Below, piece by piece: positions 50,416 to 64,000 of a DNA stretch of 64,000 bases; position 1 is the stretch's first letter; each line of letters starts with the position of its first letter. The DNA comes from Cytophagales bacterium (lineage in GTDB: Bacteria > Bacteroidota > Bacteroidia > Cytophagales > Cyclobacteriaceae), in contig JAFLBR010000003.1 of NCBI GenBank assembly GCA_017303795.1, forward strand, positions 124,001 through 188,000. Reading direction: 5' to 3'. A program made the translations under genes and the position numbers. Under the pieces are notes generated by a model. It did no database searches. It was not told the DNA's origin and saw only the letters and a list, made by a program, of their open reading frames with translations.

Positions 50416-50685
50416 ATGAGCCTCAATACCAATCTGATTAATCGCACTTCTTTATTTTGGGAGATAAACCCAAACAGGATTGCCCGCGTGCTAGAGGAAA
50501 ATGACGACTGGGTAATTGTAAGAGTTTTTGAATACGGCACTATCGAAGATATAGCAGAGGTTATTCGTGTGTATGGCAAGGCAAAGGTTATAGAAGTTTT
50601 GCGTCAGGAAAAGCTGAAGCCTATAGCTGCTTCTATGGCCTATTTGTTCCTCAATATAGATCGTTACGGAAGGCACACATTATGA
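50416..50685 (+). CDS. DUF6922 protein (antitoxin-like partner)
   Basis: An 89-residue protein beginning MSLNTNLINRTSLFWEINP, with the WEINPNRI opening and a later helix pair (FEYGTIEDIAEVIRVYGKAKVI) typical of DUF6922. Such proteins precede AbiEii/AbiGii nucleotidyltransferases and are regarded as their antitoxin or cofactor. Here it overlaps that gene by ATGA (50682-50685). The family call is from recall of form and neighbourhood. Confidence 0.78.
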   Translation: MSLNTNLINRTSLFWEINPNRIARVLEENDDWVIVRVFEYGTIEDIAEVIRVYGKAKVIEVLRQEKLKPIAASMAYLFLNIDRYGRHTL

Positions 50686-51317
50686 TTCATACCGAGACCG
50701 TAAGCCAACAGTTATTGGAAGTCGCTCAACAACTATCCTCAGTTCCAGAGCTTAGTGCTTTCAGGTTAGTTGGAGGAACAGCTATCGCTCTTCATCTGGG
50801 CCATAGAAAGTCTATCGATATAGATTTTTTTACCAACGAAAGAACCAACAAAAAAGAAATCACGGCAGTACTTCGATCGATATTCCCTCATACTGAATTC
50901 TTTCTTACCCAACACAGTATAACTTTTGAAGTTATTGGTATTCGGATAGAATTATTTGATGATTGGTCAACACCATTCTTAGAAAAACCAATCCTTGAAA
51001 ATGGGATAAGATTAGCTTCACTAAACGATCTGGCTGCATTTAAACTGGATGCCATAATTGAAAGGCGAGAAAAGAAAGATTATATCGACCTACATGTAAT
51101 CTTTAAGGCACAGGGGGCACTTCAAGTGCTACAGAAATTTAAATCTTATAATCCGCATGTCTCAGTAAAATCTGTGCTCTTTGCATTAGAAGAAGTTCAT
51201 ACCGCAAGAAGCAATAAATCTGTTATGCCTGAAATGTTGATTGATGCATCATGGCCTGAAATTGAAAAATCGATGATTAATGCGGCACGTGAATTTCTAT
51301 CAATCTCCACCTCATAA
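50682..51317 (+). CDS. AbiEii/AbiGii-type nucleotidyltransferase toxin
   Basis: A 211-residue protein with the nucleotidyltransferase motif FRLVGGTAIALHLGHRKSID followed by IDFF (the catalytic DxD pair in SIDIDFF) and a later KLDAIIERREKKDYIDL region with Lys and Asp typical of the family. AbiEii proteins act as type IV toxins or phage-abortive factors by modifying tRNA or similar targets. It follows DUF6922 with a 4-base overlap. The short form lacks the long C-terminal part of AbiEii proper but is a common variant. Confidence 0.85.
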   Translation: MIHTETVSQQLLEVAQQLSSVPELSAFRLVGGTAIALHLGHRKSIDIDFFTNERTNKKEITAVLRSIFPHTEFFLTQHSITFEVIGIRIELFDDWSTPFLEKPILENGIRLASLNDLAAFKLDAIIERREKKDYIDLHVIFKAQGALQVLQKFKSYNPHVSVKSVLFALEEVHTARSNKSVMPEMLIDASWPEIEKSMINAAREFLSISTS

Positions 51318-53309: not shown

Positions 53310-54428
53310 ATGAGCCTGTTTAGTTACGTGATCTGGAATGCAAGTCCCGAAATTTTTTCACTTGGTTGGTTTTCGCTGCGTTGGTACGGATTGTTGTTCG
53401 CAGCAGGTTTCTTGTTGAGCCAACAAGTATTGTATTATATCTTCCGTAAGGAAGGCAAACCAGAAAGCGATGTGGATTCGCTTACCATTTACATGGTAAT
53501 AGCAACCATTTTAGGTGCACGTTTGGGTCATGTTATCTTTTATCAACCTGAATTATTTCTGAGCGATCCGCTTAGCATTATACTTCCGTTCGAGTTTTCA
53601 CCGTTCCGCTTTACGGGCTTGCAAGGTTTGGCCAGCCACGGTGGTGCATTTGGAATTTTGTTTGCGCTGTGGTTGTACAGCCGCAAGAAAAAACCTGGAC
53701 AAAGTTATTTGCAGGTATTAGATAGAATTGTAATTGTAGTTGCTATTACCGGTGCATTAATCCGCTTTGGTAATTTTTTCAATTCCGAAATCATTGGTAA
53801 GCCTTCCAACAATCCGTTAAGTGTAGTTTTTGTAAACCGGGTTACCGAAAGCATTGAAGGCAAGAAAGACAGCCCAGTTCAATATGTAAAAGTTGAGCGT
53901 AACAATGAACTACCAGAAGGTGCGCATGGTCGTGTGCCTGTTTTTATTTATGTAGTGTTCAAACCGGGAGTTGACCAATCTAAAGCAAAAGCATATTTGG
54001 AGAGTGATGTGCAATACTTTATCAACTATTACGATGAGTATATTGATAACCAAGGCTCTGTAATAAAATATAAAGCTGATATAGATGGTGATGGAAACTA
54101 CATTGCACGAATTAGCACCTTCGGTATTGCCCGGCACCCGGCACAGTTATACGAAGCGGTATCGTGTGTGGTGTTATTCCTGATCTTATTCCTGATCTGG
54201 AAACGCAAAAAGGAAAATACACCCACCGGTTTAATCTTTGGCGTGTTCATGGTTATACTTTGGAGTTTGCGCTTTGCATACGAGTTTCTGAAAGAAGATC
54301 AGGTTGCCTTTGAGGAAGGTATGACTCTTAACATGGGCCAGATTCTGAGTATCCCCTTATTCATTGCCGGTGTTATCATATTAATCTGGGCATTGCGGAA
54401 CAAACCAGCCGGAAAAATCAACGCTTAA
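53310..54428 (+). CDS. lgt: Prolipoprotein diacylglyceryl transferase
   Basis: A 372-residue inner-membrane enzyme that adds diacylglycerol to the lipobox Cys. Landmarks: WYGLLFAAGFL, GARLGHVIFY, GLASHGGAFG, the signature LIRFGNFFNSEIIG, and RHPAQLYEA. About 90 residues between GKPSNNPLS and RHPAQ (about 173-265) form an extra soluble loop absent from the E. coli enzyme, which is commoner in Bacteroidota. Its substrates here include the FKBP, OmpA/TPR and SusD lipoproteins. Confidence 0.92.
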   Translation: MSLFSYVIWNASPEIFSLGWFSLRWYGLLFAAGFLLSQQVLYYIFRKEGKPESDVDSLTIYMVIATILGARLGHVIFYQPELFLSDPLSIILPFEFSPFRFTGLQGLASHGGAFGILFALWLYSRKKKPGQSYLQVLDRIVIVVAITGALIRFGNFFNSEIIGKPSNNPLSVVFVNRVTESIEGKKDSPVQYVKVERNNELPEGAHGRVPVFIYVVFKPGVDQSKAKAYLESDVQYFINYYDEYIDNQGSVIKYKADIDGDGNYIARISTFGIARHPAQLYEAVSCVVLFLILFLIWKRKKENTPTGLIFGVFMVILWSLRFAYEFLKEDQVAFEEGMTLNMGQILSIPLFIAGVIILIWALRNKPAGKINA

Positions 54429-55872: not shown

Positions 55873-57693
55873 TTACTTTGCAATCAAGTCCATTATCTTT
55901 TTAAAGATTTCTGTATTTTGATAAACTCCGGTAAACATAGAGGAGCCAGGACCATAGGCAAATAGAGGAACGGGTATTGGTGTATGATCATTGGTACTAA
56001 AACTACCTAAAACACTTCTTTGTTGGATGTTTCCACTCAGTAATGAAAGCCCGCCCGTTTCATGGTCGGCCGTTACGATCAATAACGTTTCCCGATTACT
56101 ATCTACAAATTTCAATGCCTCACCAATCACCTGATCAAAATCCAATACTTCGGTTACCACGTATTCCATATCATTGCTGTGCCCGCCCCAATCAATCTGG
56201 GCTGCCTCAAGCATGATAAAGAAAGGTGCGGGGCTTGATGTAAATACCGAAATGGTTTTCTTTAATGAACGCGTCAGAAAATCACCGCGACCTTCCCGTT
56301 TTTGTTTGATGACAGCATCATCCAGCATGACAAATTTTTGATCCTTCACTTTCTCGATTTGGTCAAACTGCGTGTACACACCGTATCCCAAACGAGTTAA
56401 TTCAGTCTTTAAATCTCTATTGTCTTTTCTTTTCGTGAATGCGGCTACTCCGCCACCAATTAAAATATCATTTTTGGTGTTCAGGAAATCAAGCGCAATA
56501 GCTTCACTCCAGCTTCGCTCCGGTTGGTGGGCATAAAATGCAGCCGGGGTGGCATCCGTTATATCTCCATTGGAAATAATACCGGTCTTGAAGTTTTGCG
56601 CTTTCACCAAATCGGTGATAGATTCCAGACGCTTGCCCACCGAGTCTACACCTACAAAACGATTTTTAGTTTTTGAACCGCTAGCCATGGCGGTGGCACC
56701 GGCTGCCGAATCTGTGATGTAACTATCCGTTGCTGCCGTAAGTGAAAATCCAATGTCTTTAATACCAAACAGACTAAGCTTACCACCATTTGCTGTGTAG
56801 CCACTAAACAATTGTGCTAACCCGGTTCCATCACCTATCAATAAAATAATATTTTTTGGTTTAGCCGTGCGGTTATGAGAATGCAAAGGCGTATAAACAA
56901 CATGTGGTGCCTTATTGGTGTATGATCGTTTTGGCAATGTTTCAATAAAGGGAGTTAGCTCATCTACATGATCAGTACCGATGATATCAACCTCAAGTTC
57001 CATCAACTGGAGCCAGACATTGGCAAAATCAGGTGCGCCCCAAAATCTGAATTTCTTTCCAGCGGCATGAACATCTTTAATGATCAATGAGATTTTCTTG
57101 TGCTCGTCTTGTGGTAAGACACCCTTTCCGTTCCACTTCGAATAGTTAGAAAACGAGTCACTGATCAATCGTACACGTTTTAATTGATCGGGTGAATATC
57201 TAACACCCGGACGGCCATCAAAATTTATAAAGTTTGGGAATTGATTCCACGTACCTGGATCCGGGACATTACCGCTAATCACAAAGCTAAGTTGCTGTGC
57301 TGCTATTAAATCCGGATACCCTTGTAAAAGTTTAACTAATGCAATCAAGGTATTACTTCCCTCCGACTTCAAATCGATCATGAGGGTTAATGCAAGTTGC
57401 TTATTCGCATAGGCGTAGCCTCCATTGGCATTTACCTTCGCTCGTAAAGGTCTCAGGTAAAGACTATCGAGTGTATTTTTTGAGTTTAACTCTGCACGGG
57501 TATGGGCTACGAGCAACTTACCTTTCTCCAGAAAAATATCAGCTTCGATATGGCCTACTTGATTTCGATAGGCATTAAAAAACGGAATGGGTTGAACATA
57601 GTCGTTATGCGCAAATATCGTTGAGGATGAGTGGGGCTGCCCAAACGCATGGATAGCCCATATAAGTTGAATAAAAAAAAGGATGACTTTCAT
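55873..57693 (-). CDS. Fusion of a GP-PDE-like domain and alkaline phosphatase
   Basis: A 606-residue secreted protein (signal ends near IHAFGQ). The N-terminal domain (about 25-255) resembles AIM6/PLC-like phosphodiesterases: FAHNDY (His-Asn), HIEADIFL (Glu-x-Asp), LLVAHTRAEL (second His) and LMIDLKSEG. The C-terminal domain (about 275-606) is a complete alkaline phosphatase: LIGDGTG, the nucleophile Ser in TDSAAGATAMASG, GDITDATPAAF, LEAAQIDWGGHSND, TADHETGG and a last His in NDHTPIP. Together they could release alcohol and then phosphate from glycerophosphodiesters. It overlaps the acid-phosphatase gene by ATGA (57690-57693). Confidence 0.85.
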   Translation of the reverse strand: MKVILFFIQLIWAIHAFGQPHSSSTIFAHNDYVQPIPFFNAYRNQVGHIEADIFLEKGKLLVAHTRAELNSKNTLDSLYLRPLRAKVNANGGYAYANKQLALTLMIDLKSEGSNTLIALVKLLQGYPDLIAAQQLSFVISGNVPDPGTWNQFPNFINFDGRPGVRYSPDQLKRVRLISDSFSNYSKWNGKGVLPQDEHKKISLIIKDVHAAGKKFRFWGAPDFANVWLQLMELEVDIIGTDHVDELTPFIETLPKRSYTNKAPHVVYTPLHSHNRTAKPKNIILLIGDGTGLAQLFSGYTANGGKLSLFGIKDIGFSLTAATDSYITDSAAGATAMASGSKTKNRFVGVDSVGKRLESITDLVKAQNFKTGIISNGDITDATPAAFYAHQPERSWSEAIALDFLNTKNDILIGGGVAAFTKRKDNRDLKTELTRLGYGVYTQFDQIEKVKDQKFVMLDDAVIKQKREGRGDFLTRSLKKTISVFTSSPAPFFIMLEAAQIDWGGHSNDMEYVVTEVLDFDQVIGEALKFVDSNRETLLIVTADHETGGLSLLSGNIQQRSVLGSFSTNDHTPIPVPLFAYGPGSSMFTGVYQNTEIFKKIMDLIAK

Positions 57694-58622
57694 TTCTTTA
57701 GTGTTGTTGCGTAAATCACTTTACCAGAATAGTCTATTACTTGTACCAACATTTGATCAGGCTGCACTGAAAACAACATAAAACCATATTGCGAGGCCAC
57801 AAATTTACTAATCGGTAGCATCCGTACAGGAGTTACTTCAGAGGCAGCTCCCGAAACAAAATGATGCGTACCAAATTTAGTTAGGTGATGTTGAAGACTA
57901 TGTTCATGACCGGCCAGGTAAGCATCTACTTTATACTTTTCAAACAATGGCTGAAGCGATTGCCGGATGGATCGCGTGTCGTGATTTTCTGTTCTACTGC
58001 CACCGGTGTACATCGGGTGATGCCCTACCACAAGCTTCCATTTAACCGTGGGGGGCGCATTGCGTAGTGTTTCCTCCAACCATTTTTTTTGGGCAGTGCT
58101 ATCCTGGTCATGTACATGATGACCTTCACCTTTATAGTAACCTTTTATGAGCGGACATGTGTCAACAAAAGCAAGTAAGATTTGAGCACCATCTCCCACG
58201 TTTATCAATTTGGAGTAATAACGCGCGGGCATCTGCCACCTGCGACTGATTTTTGAGTAAGCTACTTGTGCATCGGGATTACCCCCATAGTCATGATTGC
58301 CCAGGACTGGATACCAATCCCATTGCAATGAAAAATCTGTATAGATATCCTCAAATGAGTATCGCCACAACGGATCAAACTCGCTGGCCACACCACGGGG
58401 ATAAAAGTTATCACCTGTAGCAACAATAAAATCAACGCTTGCTGCCGATGCTACTTTTCCCATCTGCTCCGCTACCAGCTTCTGATGATCTTCTCCGTTT
58501 CGACCCCAATCGCCCATCACGATAAAGTTTACTGCCGATGGATCGATCTTGATTTTTTCTTGTGCCCTGCTCTCAATCGCGCAAAACAATACGAGTGTGA
58601 TGTAAATTTTAAATCGTATCAT
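57690..58622 (-). CDS. Secreted purple-acid-phosphatase-like metallophosphatase (ACP5 type)
   Basis: From the ATG at 58622 the protein has 310 residues and a signal peptide (cleavage near ESRAQ). Motifs of the tartrate-resistant acid phosphatase family: VMGDWGRNG, ATGDNFYPRGV, VLGNHDYGG, VVGHHPMYTGG and LAGHEHSLQHH. It binds two metals and cleaves phosphomonoesters. The TTG at 58637 is an unlikely alternative start. It overlaps the fusion gene and follows the PI-PLC gene by about 44 bases in the same direction. Confidence 0.88.
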   Translation of the reverse strand: MIRFKIYITLVLFCAIESRAQEKIKIDPSAVNFIVMGDWGRNGEDHQKLVAEQMGKVASAASVDFIVATGDNFYPRGVASEFDPLWRYSFEDIYTDFSLQWDWYPVLGNHDYGGNPDAQVAYSKISRRWQMPARYYSKLINVGDGAQILLAFVDTCPLIKGYYKGEGHHVHDQDSTAQKKWLEETLRNAPPTVKWKLVVGHHPMYTGGSRTENHDTRSIRQSLQPLFEKYKVDAYLAGHEHSLQHHLTKFGTHHFVSGAASEVTPVRMLPISKFVASQYGFMLFSVQPDQMLVQVIDYSGKVIYATTLKK

Positions 58623-58666
58623 GTTAAAATTAGTCAACTATAAAATAGAATTATTAGTAAAGTGTT

Positions 58667-59761
58667 TCACTTCAAGTCGCATGCCGATGGTTTACTGAGC
58701 ACGGGATTGCATTGGCTGTATTTACCCTCGAAAGTAATTTCAAAGTCTTTGTTTGGACTCAATGACTTTTGATAATAGTCGGTTGTGATTACCTGTGCTC
58801 CGGACCGAATAGCCGCCTCAAACCTGCTCTTGTCTCCGGTTCGTGCCTCGCGGGTGTCTGAATCAGAACGGGTGCGAACCATAAATCCCATCTTTACCCG
58901 GTCAACAATATCTTTCTCCTGCTTCACAGGATTATTCATGATGAAGAAAGCAGCATGCGGATTTTCTGGATCAGTGTTGGAAAACATAGGTCTTGCATAG
59001 TCTTCATCTCCTTTCAGATATAATTCTGTTAACGCTTTTTCCGCATCCAGTACAAAGAGTATTTTTCCTCTCGCCTTGGCAAGATCAGGCCAGCCTTGAT
59101 TCAGAATTGCCTGACGTAGCGTTTTTGCTTTTCCTTTTACCTGGCTGGGGGTAATCAATTCATCAGTTTTAAAAATTTCAAAAATCTCTTTATCTAATGC
59201 GTATAATACTTTTTCATCAAAGGGGATGACCTCAGCATAACCGGGTTTTTCAAGTCCTGAACTCTTTGGATTGATGGTAATGACAATGGGTAAATGATCG
59301 CTATGTGCTCTTGACCAATCTCTGATATCCGACAGACATGCTATGAACGTAGAACAATGCGTTCGGAAATCTATATCCGGTATGTGCAAAACTTTAAAAC
59401 CCGGATCTTTCATGATCTCTGCATTGTAAGGCTTCGATTCCAGCCCTTGCGCTTTCAGCATCTCAATCCCTTTAGGCTTTGAGAACCGACCACCATCCGG
59501 GTCGTAGAGCACATCTATCTCCAGACTTCTCAGCCCTAAGTCTAATTGTTGTGTAATGGGAATGTGTGTATAATCTAATCCAATAGCTTCCGGGCGTTCG
59601 GATAGGATAATGTCTAGCAACGGTTTTTCAATTCCAATTTTGTAACTGTTATGACTACCGATCACCTGAGTCTGGTTCATCTTGAGGTTTTGTCCATTGA
59701 GTGAAGTAAATGATTGGCAAACGACTAGGGTAAGAATAAGGTGTTTAAATAAGTGATTCAT
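58667..59761 (-). CDS. Ca2+-dependent phosphoinositide-specific phospholipase C-like enzyme
   Basis: A 364-residue secreted protein (signal ends near SLNGQ). It matches the PI-PLC-C1-like family: QVIGSHNSYKIG with catalytic His, LDLGLRSLEIDVLYDPDGG (Glu/Asp metal site), VLHIPDIDFRTHC with second His, and VITINPKS. It should cleave phosphatidylinositol-type lipids or related phosphodiesters to diacylglycerol and inositol phosphate. It is the first enzyme gene after susD, separated by a hairpin. Exact substrate preference is not readable. Confidence 0.85.
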   Translation of the reverse strand: MNHLFKHLILTLVVCQSFTSLNGQNLKMNQTQVIGSHNSYKIGIEKPLLDIILSERPEAIGLDYTHIPITQQLDLGLRSLEIDVLYDPDGGRFSKPKGIEMLKAQGLESKPYNAEIMKDPGFKVLHIPDIDFRTHCSTFIACLSDIRDWSRAHSDHLPIVITINPKSSGLEKPGYAEVIPFDEKVLYALDKEIFEIFKTDELITPSQVKGKAKTLRQAILNQGWPDLAKARGKILFVLDAEKALTELYLKGDEDYARPMFSNTDPENPHAAFFIMNNPVKQEKDIVDRVKMGFMVRTRSDSDTREARTGDKSRFEAAIRSGAQVITTDYYQKSLSPNKDFEITFEGKYSQCNPVLSKPSACDLK

Positions 59762-59822
59762 AATGATCCGTTAGAGAAAACTCAATAGCCTGAAAAATTT
59801 TTATGTGTTTGCGTAACGAGAA

Positions 59823-59855
59823 AAAGGTCGAAAGCTAAAGTTGCTTTCGACCTTT
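59823..59855 (-). terminator. Hairpin with U-tract between susD and the PLC gene (attenuator-like)
   Basis: AAAGGTCGAAAGC (59823-59835) pairs perfectly, 13 bp, with GCTTTCGACCTTT (59843-59855). On the minus strand it is followed by TTTTTC, a plausible U-tract. It stands between susD and the downstream enzymes in one operon, so it may lower enzyme expression relative to SusCD or be bypassed by an internal promoter, none of which I could find. Confidence 0.75.
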
Positions 59856-59890
59856 CATATTTTTTACTTTGATGATCAACCAACCTGCAA

Positions 59891-61636
59891 TTAATACCCA
59901 GGGTTCTGCGATAAAAAACCGGGTAAGTTAGAAGCACCATCAATTGCTTTTTGCGGAATAGGGAACAGCCTTTTGTTTACATCGTTACCCGTTTTGCCAG
60001 TCCAACTGCCCTCGTATTTACCAAAACGTATTTGATAATTTCTTCGCAAGCCCTCCCAGTAGAGCTCAAAACCAGATTCACGAAATAAAATATCGAGGCT
60101 TAATGAGGTAAGGGCTGCAGGAGTTTGCGCAGGTCGGGCATTTCTGGAAGTTCTGAGTGTATTTATATCTGCCAACGCTCCGGCATTGTCACCACTTCTC
60201 AACTTGGCTTCCGCACGCATAAGATAAATTTCTCCCAAGCGAATCAAAACAAGATCTACACTGCTATAATTACAACAATCGGGGGCGGTACGGCTAAACT
60301 GATATTTTGAAAACCGGTGACCTGTGTGGTGTAAACTGCCCTGATCAGTAAAATCAACTTGCATGATGTGATCGACATAAGTTCGGTTTGCACCGCTGGT
60401 TCGTGCATTGATAACAGGATAAATCCGGACTTTACCATCAGCACATTTTAATATGTTACCTGCTGCGTCTTTTCTGGGGCCCCATATTGTACCGCGCAGT
60501 ATTCCTCTGTTTATCTCGAAGCTATTTGCATCCACACAGTAATAATGCTCAGAATCGTTGGCCGGTGTAATACCGGTAAGATCCTCAAGATTTTCCGGCA
60601 CAATTGTATTTTCCTGAAAGAAGCGGGCATCCGCTTCTGCAGGATCTACGTTACCGTAAGCATTCACCCAGGTTTGGTAAAAATCGGGAGTTAAAGCTGC
60701 CGCATCTGTACCGCGCGTATTGGGCCACTCAGGTCTCGGTACTAAATCACCTGATATCGACCAATAAGCCCAACGGCTATGTTCAGTTTGAAGCACACCC
60801 CGTTGGTCAAGCGAGAATATGATTTCTGGATTTGTGTTGTTATTATCATTGAATAACGCAAAGTATTCAGGAGACAACGAATAAGGACCTGAGATAATCT
60901 CGTTTGTATATTGAATAACCTTCTGCATATCTTCTGCCTTAAAATCCGGAGTTCCGTAAGGATTTCTATAAACAGCCGCATTCAAATATAGCCTTGCCAA
61001 CAACGCTTTAACTGCATTTCTTGAAAACCTACCCGGGCCTTTATTGGTATTAATTACATTAACAACCGATAGAAGATCACTCTCCAAATAATCAATTGCT
61101 GCTTGTCCTCTTAAAATCTCTGATCGCGCAGCCCCACTTGATTTCTTAAAAAGAAGACCCCAATTATCCAACAACTGCATGTTAAGATATGCCTTCATCG
61201 CTATCATTTCGTAAAGTGCACCCTGTGCTTCTGCATCACCTGATTCAGCTTCAGGTTTCAATCTTTCCTCTGCTGCTACCGCTCTCGATAAAGTTAGTGT
61301 TAAGTCTGTCCAGGTGTCTCCTACCAATGCGTTTCCAGGGGTGGTAAGATGTTGATGAACCGCAATAAACTTTCCACCGTCAAACCAATCCCTTCCTCCA
61401 CGGTAAGGAAGAATGGCTTCATCGGAGGCTATTTCCTGAAGCCCAAAATTACGAGTATGCAACCATACGTTACGCAGAAGACCATATACAGGCGCAATGG
61501 AGCCACTTACCGTTTCTGCCTGACCCGTTCCTGTTAATGACTCATCCAGTATATCTTCTTCCAGGTTAGTGCAACTTAGAAAAGCCAATAAAAAGGCAAA
61601 GATTGGAAATGTCTTTCGATACATTATATTTTTCAT
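59891..61636 (-). CDS. SusD/RagB-family outer-membrane lipoprotein
   Basis: A 581-residue lipoprotein (lipobox FLSC, Cys about 22). It has the TPR-rich helical SusD fold: KAYLNMQLLDNWGLLF, VKALLARLYLNAAVY, LIRLGEIYLMRAEAKLRSGD, DINTLRTSR, and the C-terminal RESGFELYWEGLRRNYQIRFG. SusD proteins form the lid over a SusC transporter and bind its ligand. It follows the SusC gene by 41 bases. The ligand is unknown; the downstream enzymes point to phosphorylated compounds. Confidence 0.93.
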   Translation of the reverse strand: MKNIMYRKTFPIFAFLLAFLSCTNLEEDILDESLTGTGQAETVSGSIAPVYGLLRNVWLHTRNFGLQEIASDEAILPYRGGRDWFDGGKFIAVHQHLTTPGNALVGDTWTDLTLTLSRAVAAEERLKPEAESGDAEAQGALYEMIAMKAYLNMQLLDNWGLLFKKSSGAARSEILRGQAAIDYLESDLLSVVNVINTNKGPGRFSRNAVKALLARLYLNAAVYRNPYGTPDFKAEDMQKVIQYTNEIISGPYSLSPEYFALFNDNNNTNPEIIFSLDQRGVLQTEHSRWAYWSISGDLVPRPEWPNTRGTDAAALTPDFYQTWVNAYGNVDPAEADARFFQENTIVPENLEDLTGITPANDSEHYYCVDANSFEINRGILRGTIWGPRKDAAGNILKCADGKVRIYPVINARTSGANRTYVDHIMQVDFTDQGSLHHTGHRFSKYQFSRTAPDCCNYSSVDLVLIRLGEIYLMRAEAKLRSGDNAGALADINTLRTSRNARPAQTPAALTSLSLDILFRESGFELYWEGLRRNYQIRFGKYEGSWTGKTGNDVNKRLFPIPQKAIDGASNLPGFLSQNPGY

Positions 61637-61677
61637 AGTTCTGTTATGTTTTGTTAAAAGAGTTGTTTGCCTTGTTC

Positions 61678-64000
61678 TTAGAATGTTACATTAAGACTAA
61701 ACAAAAACGTTCTTGCTCTTGGATAGGTAAAACGATCGATACCAAAGGTTTGGATTTCACCTACTGTTGATCCCGTATTTACTTCCGGATCATATCCCGA
61801 ATAATCCGTTATCGTAAACAAGTTTTGACCCGTCATCGAAAGACGAATGTTTTGCACGGCATTACCCAAGCCTATCTTGTTAGATCTCAAGTTATACCCA
61901 AGGGTAGCATTATTCAATCTCAGGAAGGAGCCGTTTTCCAAATAACGGGTAGATACGGTGTTGGAATTACTTGCCGACTCATTGGGAAACTGTGTGGCAA
62001 AATCGGTTGTATTATTCGATCTTGTCAATTGTGCCTTACTAAATAACGTCATCGTGCTATGATTATAAATCTGGTTTCCGGCAACACCATTAAAGTTGAA
62101 CCCTAAGTCAAAATCCTTATACCGAAAGTTCATGTTAAAGGCATAGATAAAATCAGGAATCGAATTACCAACAACTCTGCGGTCATTGTCTAACACAGCT
62201 CCATCTCCGTTGGTATCCTTAAATTGGTTAAGTCCGTCAGCACCAATTCCATCGAATTCAAGCATATAAAAGGCGCCTATTGCTTCATTATTAATATAGC
62301 CATTGATGGTTGCGCCTGTTTGACCTGAGCCGGAGGCCGCCCCTGTGGTGAGAACACTAAAGGGTGAATCCGTCACCTTATTTCTAATATAGGTTACATT
62401 ACCACCAATGCTATAAGAGAAATTACGTTGTGAATTACCTTTATAATTTAGCGATAGCTCCACACCATTATTCTGGATAATCATATCATTGATATTGGTC
62501 CAAAATCTGTCAGTTGGCTGCACTGGGTCTGCTGGCTGTACCTCCAGCAATATGTTCGTTGAACGCTTATTAAAATAATCCAAGGTACCGGTCAACCGAT
62601 AATCAAGAAGTGCAAAATCAATTCCGATATCGGTCTGTGTGGATACTTCCCATTGTAGGTTAGGGTTTGCCAAACGAGTAAACGTAATCCCAAAAGGATA
62701 ACCATCAATCGAAGTAGCCATAGGATCAATAGGGTACGTGTTGAGGCTTGAGCCGCCTGTCACCAATCTGGATTCTGAAAAGCTTGCTTGTGTAATCTTA
62801 GCGGGTATTTCCTGGTTACCGGTCTGTCCCCAACTCGCCCGTATCTTCAGGTTTTGAAAAAAGGAGTTAGACATAAATTTTTCGTTGATAATATTCCAAC
62901 CTAGTGCAACCGAAGGAAAGTATCCGTATTTGTTATTGTCTCCAAATTTTGAAGATCCATCTGCCCGAAGTGTAGCCGTAATCAGGTATTTATCTGAAAA
63001 CCCATAGTTCAATCGACCGAAGAAAGATTGTAGCTCATTTTTCTCGGCATTGGAAACTACCGTGGTGGGGAAAGTAGTACTACTTGTCTGATCCTGATAC
63101 CTTGGATCAATATTGTTATTGGCAAAACCCAGAAAATTAACTGCTCTGGCTTCATCTAAAAAATCCTGATAAGAGTGCCCTGCTAATAACACAACCGAGT
63201 GAATATCCTTTTTCCAATTATAGGTAAGTGTATTCTCGACTAGTTCATTTGTATTTGCAGTGATCGTATTTGTTAAAGATCCATTTGAGATATTCGCCTC
63301 GTTTACAATCTCCGGAAACGGCTTGAATTGAACGTCCCGGTTGGTAGTGGAATAATCAACACCAAGATTCAATTTATAAACAAGACCTTTCACTATTTCT
63401 AACGAAGGTGAAATGGAAGCCAGAATACGGTTGTTGATGGCCAAATCACTGTATAGCTCATTCCTCTTGAGGGGATTCAGTGCGTTGATGTTCAGCAAAG
63501 TAGGCGCACCATCTGTATATGCTGGTATCGTAGGATTTAAACTGAGCATATCACTTATGGTTGGATTTATCTGTGGACGCAAATTTTCGGTGCGGGATGC
63601 AGTCAGGTTGTACTCTATATTCAACTTATCATTCAGCGCCTTTTGGGTTATATTCAATTTTCCGGAATACCGCTGAAGGTTGCTATTCTTTAAGATTCCT
63701 TCTTGATCCTGTAATCCTAAAGAAGCGAAATAGGAAAACTTGTCTGAAGCTCCACTCAAAGAAAAATTGGCATTTGTCGAAACACCCGTTTGGGTTAATT
63801 CATCCTGCCAATCCGTATTTCCATCAAAGTCTTCCAGAAGACCACCCTCGGCCACTACCTGACTGCGGAACTCATCGGCACTGAACACAGGTATCTTTCT
63901 GGACATAGTAGACACCGCTGTAGCGATGGAAAAATTCATCTCCGTTTTTCCAGACTTTCCTTTTTTAGTTGTTATTACCACCACTCCATTAGATGCCCTT
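61678..64000 (-). CDS. SusC/RagA-family TonB-dependent transporter (N-terminus beyond the right edge)
   Basis: The frame stays open to the edge; the last codons before the internal GTG at 63984 read RASNG, so the plug-domain signature ASNGVVVITTKKGK is complete and the start lies outside. About 770 residues are present of a usual 1000; missing are the signal peptide, carboxypeptidase-like domain and TonB box. The barrel is intact (EVSTQTDIGIDFALLDYRLTG, RADGSSKFGDNNKYGYFPSVALGW) and ends ARTFLFSLNVTF. It imports a ligand across the outer membrane with TonB energy, paired with the SusD below it. Confidence 0.92.
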   Translation of the reverse strand, partial: RASNGVVVITTKKGKSGKTEMNFSIATAVSTMSRKIPVFSADEFRSQVVAEGGLLEDFDGNTDWQDELTQTGVSTNANFSLSGASDKFSYFASLGLQDQEGILKNSNLQRYSGKLNITQKALNDKLNIEYNLTASRTENLRPQINPTISDMLSLNPTIPAYTDGAPTLLNINALNPLKRNELYSDLAINNRILASISPSLEIVKGLVYKLNLGVDYSTTNRDVQFKPFPEIVNEANISNGSLTNTITANTNELVENTLTYNWKKDIHSVVLLAGHSYQDFLDEARAVNFLGFANNNIDPRYQDQTSSTTFPTTVVSNAEKNELQSFFGRLNYGFSDKYLITATLRADGSSKFGDNNKYGYFPSVALGWNIINEKFMSNSFFQNLKIRASWGQTGNQEIPAKITQASFSESRLVTGGSSLNTYPIDPMATSIDGYPFGITFTRLANPNLQWEVSTQTDIGIDFALLDYRLTGTLDYFNKRSTNILLEVQPADPVQPTDRFWTNINDMIIQNNGVELSLNYKGNSQRNFSYSIGGNVTYIRNKVTDSPFSVLTTGAASGSGQTGATINGYINNEAIGAFYMLEFDGIGADGLNQFKDTNGDGAVLDNDRRVVGNSIPDFIYAFNMNFRYKDFDLGFNFNGVAGNQIYNHSTMTLFSKAQLTRSNNTTDFATQFPNESASNSNTVSTRYLENGSFLRLNNATLGYNLRSNKIGLGNAVQNIRLSMTGQNLFTITDYSGYDPEVNTGSTVGEIQTFGIDRFTYPRARTFLFSLNVTF

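Follow-up and report, generated by a model that had tools for sequence, protein, structure and literature searches.

Genes of the locus

We analyzed a 64,000-nt stretch of the genome of a Cytophagales bacterium (GenBank assembly GCA_017303795.1, 4.87 Mb; positions 124,001 to 188,000 of contig JAFLBR010000003.1, C18 in our numbering), below called the window. Its right end carries five intact genes on the minus strand: susC, susD and genes of a phosphoinositide phospholipase C (PI-PLC), a metallophosphatase and a two-domain phosphatase (the fusion). A first-pass annotation made from the window had placed these five genes on one strand, and they proved to be real and intact. We consider it likely that the locus is a phosphate utilisation system (PUS), i.e. 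a SusCD uptake pair with companion phospho-hydrolases, which would import a small organic phosphodiester. The features are:

61678..64000, minus strand: susC-like TonB-dependent transporter (768 aa when counted from the first start codon in frame within the window)
59891..61636, minus strand: susD-like lipoprotein, 581 aa (PF07980, 60.9 bits; lipobox-like FLSC)
59815..59857, minus strand: terminator-like hairpin and T tract between susD and the PI-PLC gene (−22.6 kcal/mol, z −6.8)
58667..59761, minus strand: PI-PLC-C1, Ca2+-dependent phosphoinositide phospholipase C, 364 aa (PF16670, 384 bits; cut-off 29.9)
57690..58622, minus strand: TRAP/uteroferrin-like purple acid phosphatase (PF00149)
56868..57693, minus strand: N-terminal GDPD/PLC-fold domain of the fusion, residues 1-275
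55873..56867, minus strand: C-terminal PhoA-type alkaline phosphatase domain of the fusion

SusC scores 500.5 bits on TIGR04056 (cut-off 368). At full length (1020 aa; the gene starts 740 bp past the window edge, L001:7679-10741) it has the plug (PF07715), barrel (PF00593) and carboxypeptidase-regulatory (PF13715) domains. In the 9 kb beyond susC we saw first a same-strand gene with MORN repeats and then unrelated genes on both strands, coding for a helix-hairpin-helix protein, a head-GIN domain protein, an oxidoreductase and a DUF5916/CBM9-like protein. A polysaccharide locus past the right edge, which the first-pass annotation had named as a finding that would reduce the link to chance adjacency, does not occur within these 9 kb. 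Its statement that no glycoside hydrolase is present also holds: our scans of genes in the locus and on either side of it revealed no glycoside hydrolase, polysaccharide lyase or other carbohydrate-active enzyme (CAZyme); the closest match with a link to carbohydrates is the CBM9-like domain ∼6 kb beyond susC. The locus shares the SusCD architecture with Sus-like polysaccharide utilisation loci; with neither a glycoside hydrolase nor a polysaccharide lyase beside susCD, it is not one of them. At the other end of the locus, the fusion gene and the gene of a POTRA-domain protein lie tail to tail.

The three enzymes

The PI-PLC has structural relatives in PDB (5fyo and 3h4w), and its residues H37, E81, D83 and H126, which we take to be catalytic, are invariant across 22 sequences. 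With a profile score above the cut-off and conserved His and acid residues, it is a predicted member of PI-PLC-C1. The top PDB matches of the metallophosphatase are mammalian purple acid phosphatases (E 8.6e-37), and seven positions, D43, D76, Y79, N114, H207, H244 and H246, presumably metal ligands, are conserved among 13 sequences. As its closest solved relatives are TRAP and uteroferrin and the seven positions are kept, it is, judging by sequence, a TRAP-type purple acid phosphatase.

The C-terminal domain of the fusion is of PhoA type (PF00245 above the cut-off, with a fold that agrees). The N-terminal domain stays below the Pfam cut-offs (PF13653, 19.2 versus 27; PF03009, 14.4 versus 23.6), and a PDB sequence search with this domain alone gave nothing credible; it has the PLC/GDPD superfamily fold and GDPD-like conserved residues, yet falls outside the Pfam family. 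Since its Foldseek list also includes a beta-glucanase and sphingomyelinase D-type enzymes at similar scores, fold alone leaves its substrate unfixed; besides, the model of the whole fusion is moderate only (pLDDT 73.8). Thus, the trio has two diesterase and two monoesterase sites in which key residues are conserved, with families assigned by sequence and fold and with presumed substrates.

Relation to described systems

Clusters of this kind are described in PMC8115612 (Lidbury et al. 2020), where SusCD clusters of Flavobacterium induced by starvation for inorganic phosphate (Pi) were named ‘phosphate utilisation systems’. There PUSI consists of PusCD1, a PI-PLC and a PF00149 CpdA-like enzyme, and PUSII of PusCD2 and PhoA1 with PF00245/PF13653; PusD is reported as polyphyletic, and phosphodiesters are proposed as substrates, with lipid head groups and nucleic acids as the likeliest. 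In the table of the same source, Fjoh_4172 and Fjoh_4173 seem to have each other's Pfam numbers. In the literature searched, as far as its texts were available and with subscription papers and preprints outside coverage, the term PusCD was met just in PMC8115612 and PMC8812569.

The window locus, a SusCD-like pair beside phosphodiesterases and phosphomonoesterases with no CAZymes, fits the PUS definition in its gene content. PUSI of Flavobacterium johnsoniae (PusCD1 Fjoh_4168/9, Fjoh_4172/4173), described in PMC8115612 as induced by Pi depletion and free of CAZymes, likewise has a PI-PLC (PF16670) and a phosphoesterase (PF00149) beside SusCD; the window adds the GDPD/alkaline phosphatase fusion, and the likeness is one of enzyme content. 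PhoA1 (Fjoh_3249) of PUSII (PusCD2 Fjoh_3250/1) has, according to the same paper, PF00245 and PF13653, like the window's fusion, whose sub-threshold PF13653 score is backed by the fold; the window differs in having the PI-PLC after susD. The first-pass annotation knew of no described locus with its set; the locus type is in fact already described, and the window merges the PUSI and PUSII enzyme sets into a new combination. In other words, the functional idea known from Flavobacterium appears here in Cytophagales, joining enzymes of two separate Flavobacterium systems. By analogy, induction of the window locus by phosphate depletion is predicted.

The first-pass annotation had placed the degradation outside the cell. 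The leaders of the three enzymes, with neither a recognisable lipobox nor a tail of the type IX secretion system, rather point to the periplasm, and both PUSI enzymes are termed periplasmic in PMC8115612.

Conservation in the family and class

We surveyed 148 genomes of the family and 395 of the class. Neighbours were labelled by BLAST against a small reference set and by selected Pfam scans, so an unlabelled gene could still be a phospho-hydrolase. SusD matches of 47-81% identity were inspected; below that (43-44% and lower) only two, in PI-PLC loci L037 and L039, were considered.

PI-PLC matches were found in 33 of the 148 family genomes (32 above cut-off). Ten other family genomes have SusD relatives of 75-81% identity, the clade of the window's SusD; all ten carry PI-PLC somewhere, and nine have a phospho-hydrolase beside susCD: PI-PLC immediately downstream of susD and in the same orientation (six genomes), PI-PLC nearby on the opposite strand (two) or another metallophosphatase adjoining susD on the opposite strand (G146). 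No reference phospho-hydrolase lies beside susCD in the tenth genome, G123. At 47-51% SusD identity, 9 of 15 cases have such a neighbour, be it PI-PLC, the TRAP-like phosphatase, a different metallophosphatase, or the fusion or its domain. On the SusD tree the phospho label needs 7 changes versus a mean of 12.2 when shuffled, in a sample biased by nine rows (seven Flavobacteriales, L182 and L212) collected via phosphatase homology and one (L091) via PI-PLC homology. PI-PLC and the SusD lineage (at least 44% identity) occur together in 19 family genomes versus 7.6 expected (Fisher p 6e-7, kinship ignored).

Both SusC and SusD are encoded no more than three genes from PI-PLC in 12 of 32 family loci and in 5 of 20 class loci, the latter being 20 neighbourhoods of 31 near-full-length non-window matches; a rough chance rate for such proximity is ∼6% (42 plug genes per 4.87 Mb, 7 kb span). 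On visual inspection, 12 of these 20 class loci (L087, L092, L094-L103) have no SusCD pair at all. In another family, f42, four loci contain SusC-SusD-PI-PLC, and in one of them (L085) the phosphatase comes next; SusC there shares 33-34% identity with the window's, and for SusD, compared with the window's or with another reference SusD, the value is 25-37%.

Two side observations concern PI-PLC loci. G146 carries a tandem pair of PI-PLC genes (L062) and a third on another contig. In G042 (L061:3468-18250; similar order in L053 and L054), SusCD and PI-PLC are accompanied by PhoX, a metallophosphatase, a class-III aminotransferase, a HAD hydrolase, DUF5690 and an FAD oxidoreductase; some of these genes presumably have a phosphonate role, and this is perhaps a combined phosphodiester and aminophosphonate locus.

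The phosphatase as a SusCD companion

Relatives of the TRAP-like phosphatase (E 1e-50) are present in 25 of the 148 family and 19 of the 395 class genomes, the window genome included. We considered two sets of loci with several genomes in common: (i) 20 neighbourhoods of 44 distinct non-window family and class matches and (ii) the best 80 of at least 551 relatives, weighted to Pedobacter. In set (i), 15 of the 20 loci have SusD encoded upstream in the same orientation, at a distance of one or two genes, and so do 62 of the best 80. The preceding SusCD pairs span ∼30% to 60% SusC identity, and the survey suggests that recruitment of SusCD transporters beside phospho-hydrolases happened more than once. 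The earlier claim that this SusCD serves phosphoester compounds is strengthened: its own clade has an adjacent phospho-hydrolase in nine of ten cases, and SusCD lineages of other families precede the same enzymes.

Five Flavobacterium species and two Flavobacteriales records have SusC-SusD with the phosphatase and, in six of the seven, the fusion as well, which in L227 precedes in gene order. Identities to the window are 58-60% (SusC), 63-64% (SusD), 58-61% (phosphatase) and 41-55% (fusion). Judging by gene content, these loci look like PUSII with the phosphatase added. In one of them (Flavobacterium geliluteum, L194:250-3975), a large regulator with propeller repeats, Y_Y_Y and an AraC-type helix-turn-helix domain is encoded directly upstream, a position suggesting local ligand sensing. 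Bacteroidota-type SusCD, a FecR-like gene and the phosphatase were also seen on contig L212, from a metagenome-assembled genome titled Thalassovita sp. with an alphaproteobacterial label; this contig is probably misbinned.

The hairpin after susD

The 129-bp gap between susD and the PI-PLC gene contains a hairpin of 14 pairs followed by T's; none of 200 shuffles was equally good. In loci L001-L181 (gaps of 50-330 bp), a comparable hairpin is present in 12 of 13 susD-to-phosphoenzyme gaps, the window's included, versus 19 of 322 other same-strand gaps; hairpin sequences differ between loci. It is present likewise in 7 of 11 gaps after SusD preceding non-phospho genes; thus the hairpin is general to SusD ends and nothing special about phosphate. 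Most of the Flavobacteriales loci inspected have no such hairpin. Our reading is that it marks the usual end of the susCD transcript, with the trio expressed lower or separately; susCD and the trio are probably separate transcripts split by the terminator. A single five-gene operon, as the first-pass annotation had it, was therefore rejected as the default.

A possible inositol link

Myo-inositol oxygenase (PF05153 in L168, elsewhere recognized by similarity to the L168 protein) is encoded within five genes of the phosphatase in 41 of the best 80 loci, mostly from Pedobacter and Chitinophagaceae and usually in the order oxygenase-SusC-SusD-phosphatase; 36 of these 80 also have NAGLU or GH92 relatives close to the phosphatase. 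Such loci have the same TRAP-like phosphatase as the window, there directly after susD; they differ from the window in another SusCD lineage, in the oxygenase, in frequent NAGLU, GH28 or GH92 genes and in having no PI-PLC near.

One such cluster, in Pedobacter sp. Leaf194 (L211:1662-17235), codes for LacI, myo-inositol oxygenase, SusC, SusD, TRAP-like phosphatase, a 415-aa protein, NAGLU, GH28 and GH92, and it recurs in many of L190-L256. The divergent neighbour is a LacI-type regulator by domain scan; the 415-aa protein has no Pfam match and is presumably acetyltransferase-like. The cluster looks like a glycosyl-inositol-phosphate utilisation locus.

Could the window locus itself serve inositol-phosphate utilisation? 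Here the importer and phosphatase would use inositol-phosphate head groups (of glycosyl-inositol-phosphate lipids, glycosylphosphatidylinositol (GPI)-like anchors or phosphatidylinositol) for carbon and phosphorus, the path ending in the oxygenase. Besides the oxygenase and NAGLU/GH92 counts above, two arrangements argue for this: in G084, LacI, oxygenase and sodium symporter genes precede SusC and SusD of the window's lineage and a GDPD domain, and in G090 the symporter and oxygenase genes are three and four genes after SusC-SusD-PI-PLC. PI-PLC and oxygenase occur together in 20 of the 148 family genomes versus 12.0 expected (p 0.002) or, with weak matches removed, in 18 versus 10.4, kinship being ignored in both; oxygenase matches as such are found in 54 of the 148, six of them fragmentary or weak. 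The window genome has an oxygenase gene adjoining that of a sodium symporter (77% identical to G084's), as well as a uronate isomerase gene. On the other side, this oxygenase is on another contig (C1) with no SusCD in the stretch read, the best 80 loci are Pedobacter-weighted, and in set (i) just 3 of 20 loci, all from f42, have the oxygenase near. The inositol part of the first-pass annotation gains support from the oxygenase beside relatives' SusCD-phosphatase loci. We regard such a function as possible, though short of probable; inositol is a putative ligand, and inositol-phosphate head groups are a plausible candidate substrate.

One could speculate further, and here we are doubtful, that SusCD and the TRAP-like phosphatase make a Bacteroidota-wide module for inositol-phosphate head groups. 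Its substrates would be glycosyl-inositol-phosphorylceramide, GPI-like anchors and phosphatidylinositol; the phosphatase would free inositol, to be burnt via myo-inositol oxygenase and glucuronate and not by the bacterial iol pathway. The Pedobacter version would add NAGLU, the presumed acetyltransferase and GH92 to strip glycans first, as in lysosomal heparan breakdown, and the window locus would be a lipid-cutting variant with PI-PLC and the GDPD/alkaline phosphatase fusion.

No title or abstract in the literature searched, with subscription papers and preprints outside coverage, describes SusCD with myo-inositol oxygenase. According to PMC9430895, canonical inositol clusters occur in 3% of 2,227 Bacteroidetes species and in 49% of 55 Spirosomaceae. 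Given this rarity and the frequency of the oxygenase in the family, the inositol lead would matter most: if true, these bacteria would have a largely overlooked way of obtaining carbon and phosphorus from the inositol lipids of plants or fungi.

The same neighbourhoods bear on a phosphorylated-glycan locus, in which the enzymes would strip phosphate from SusCD-imported glycans (phosphomannan, glycan phosphodiesters). Phosphatase relatives do sit with GH92, GH28, NAGLU or GH88 genes, and one relative SusCD sits with fucosidases; with nothing closer to a glycoside hydrolase than the CBM9-like domain in the window's scanned locus and flanks, we find this explanation improbable.

Possible phosphate regulation

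The window genome has no PF12849 (PstS) match and no PhoX match; among 20 genomes searched, PF12849 was found in 14 (10 above cut-off) and PhoX in 15. Some of the positive genomes carry the same SusCD clade, thus absence is not a rule. In G034, the homologous SusCD-PI-PLC locus has genes for PstS and an ABC ATPase next to it.

Alignment of 11 susC upstream regions gave a candidate Pho box, 11-bp direct repeats YTAAC-N6-YTAAC. Among the susC orthologues 4 of 11 match it at 10 of 10 positions and seven at 9 or more, a level reached by 39 of 532 other genes; this enrichment is circular, as the motif was first seen in the same alignment. Two of 10 PF12849 genes (L105 and L108) score 10 of 10 and the other eight score 7 or 8; one of 11 PhoX genes reaches 9, two PhoX loci with too little upstream sequence being left out. 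A triple repeat gave six matches over four genomes versus three for the reversed control.

Weighing the interpretation

The PUS reading is drawn from (i) the enzyme families and their conserved active-site residues; (ii) the adjacent phospho-hydrolase in nine of the ten genomes of the SusCD clade; (iii) the excess of PI-PLC/SusD-lineage co-occurrence; (iv) the diverse SusCD pairs preceding the same phosphatase; (v) induction of PUSI and PUSII by Pi depletion, as reported in PMC8115612; (vi) the missing PF12849 match in the window genome, the plant-associated strains with PUS likewise being without a Pst system in that text; (vii) the PstS and ABC ATPase genes beside the G034 locus; and (viii) the oxygenase-symporter pair and uronate isomerase in the window genome. 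SusD would bind a small organic phosphodiester at the cell surface, a candidate being the head group of a deacylated lipid (glycerophosphoinositol or a different glycerophosphodiester, for example), and SusC would import it with TonB energy. Once in the periplasm, the diester may be cut to a monoester by the PI-PLC or by the GDPD domain, and from this monoester the purple acid phosphatase or the alkaline phosphatase would free phosphate and an alcohol. The alcohol may be myo-inositol, presumably taken up by the sodium symporter and passed to the oxygenase, whose genes are present.

A number of observations weigh against this reading. At 64-67% SusD identity a reference phospho-hydrolase is adjacent in just one of eight family genomes (one of the eight is on a 3.9 kb contig, and some neighbours of the group had no domain scan); neighbours there are FecR regulators, DUF302, amidohydrolase, ureidoglycolate lyase and unscanned genes, and the neighbours of sister SusCD clades code for FecR, DUF302, amidohydrolase or fucosidase. 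Of the PI-PLC loci, 20 of the 32 others in the family and 15 of the 20 in the class lack a SusC-SusD pair at a distance of up to three genes, and PI-PLC lies within five genes of the phosphatase in just one of the best 80 phosphatase loci; the two enzymes are together in three family genomes versus 5.6 expected, i.e. there is no co-occurrence. The exact five-gene order, which the first-pass annotation proposed to look for, was found in no other locus among the family, class and phosphatase loci inspected, and neither PI-PLC nor the window's SusD is present in any of three same-genus genomes. The terminator weakens the operon argument. PstS is present in G025 and G034 despite the same SusCD clade and PI-PLC. 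The Pho-box-like motif sought before susC scores just 8 of 10 in the window, no better than background (a score of at least 8 is reached by 220 of 532 other genes), and the triple repeat is absent from the window genome; with the orthologue enrichment circular, we keep the motif as a lead only.

Relatives keeping SusCD without the enzymes, named earlier as grounds for discarding the link, thus exist at 64-67% SusD identity (seven of eight), but not as the rule at 75-81% (nine of ten linked). With 9/10, 1/8 and 9/15 at 75-81%, 64-67% and 47-51% identity, SusD is not a clean phosphate marker; the SusCD-phosphoenzyme link is strong within the clade of the window and loose across the lineage as a whole. 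An ordinary nutrient SusCD, ending at its own terminator before an unrelated phosphatase operon, would explain the strong terminator and the sister clades without these enzymes, and TonB-dependent receptors are numerous (42 plug-domain matches in the window genome). Given the nine of ten linked genomes and the many different SusCD lineages that the phosphatase follows, we give such chance neighbourhood little credence beside the PUS reading.

Other genes of the window

Outside the locus, positions 53310-54428 code for a prolipoprotein diacylglyceryl transferase (372 aa), residues 13-360 of which align to a 240-position profile, implying an insertion of ∼100 residues. An AbiEii-like nucleotidyl transferase gene (PF08843) is located at 50682-51317.

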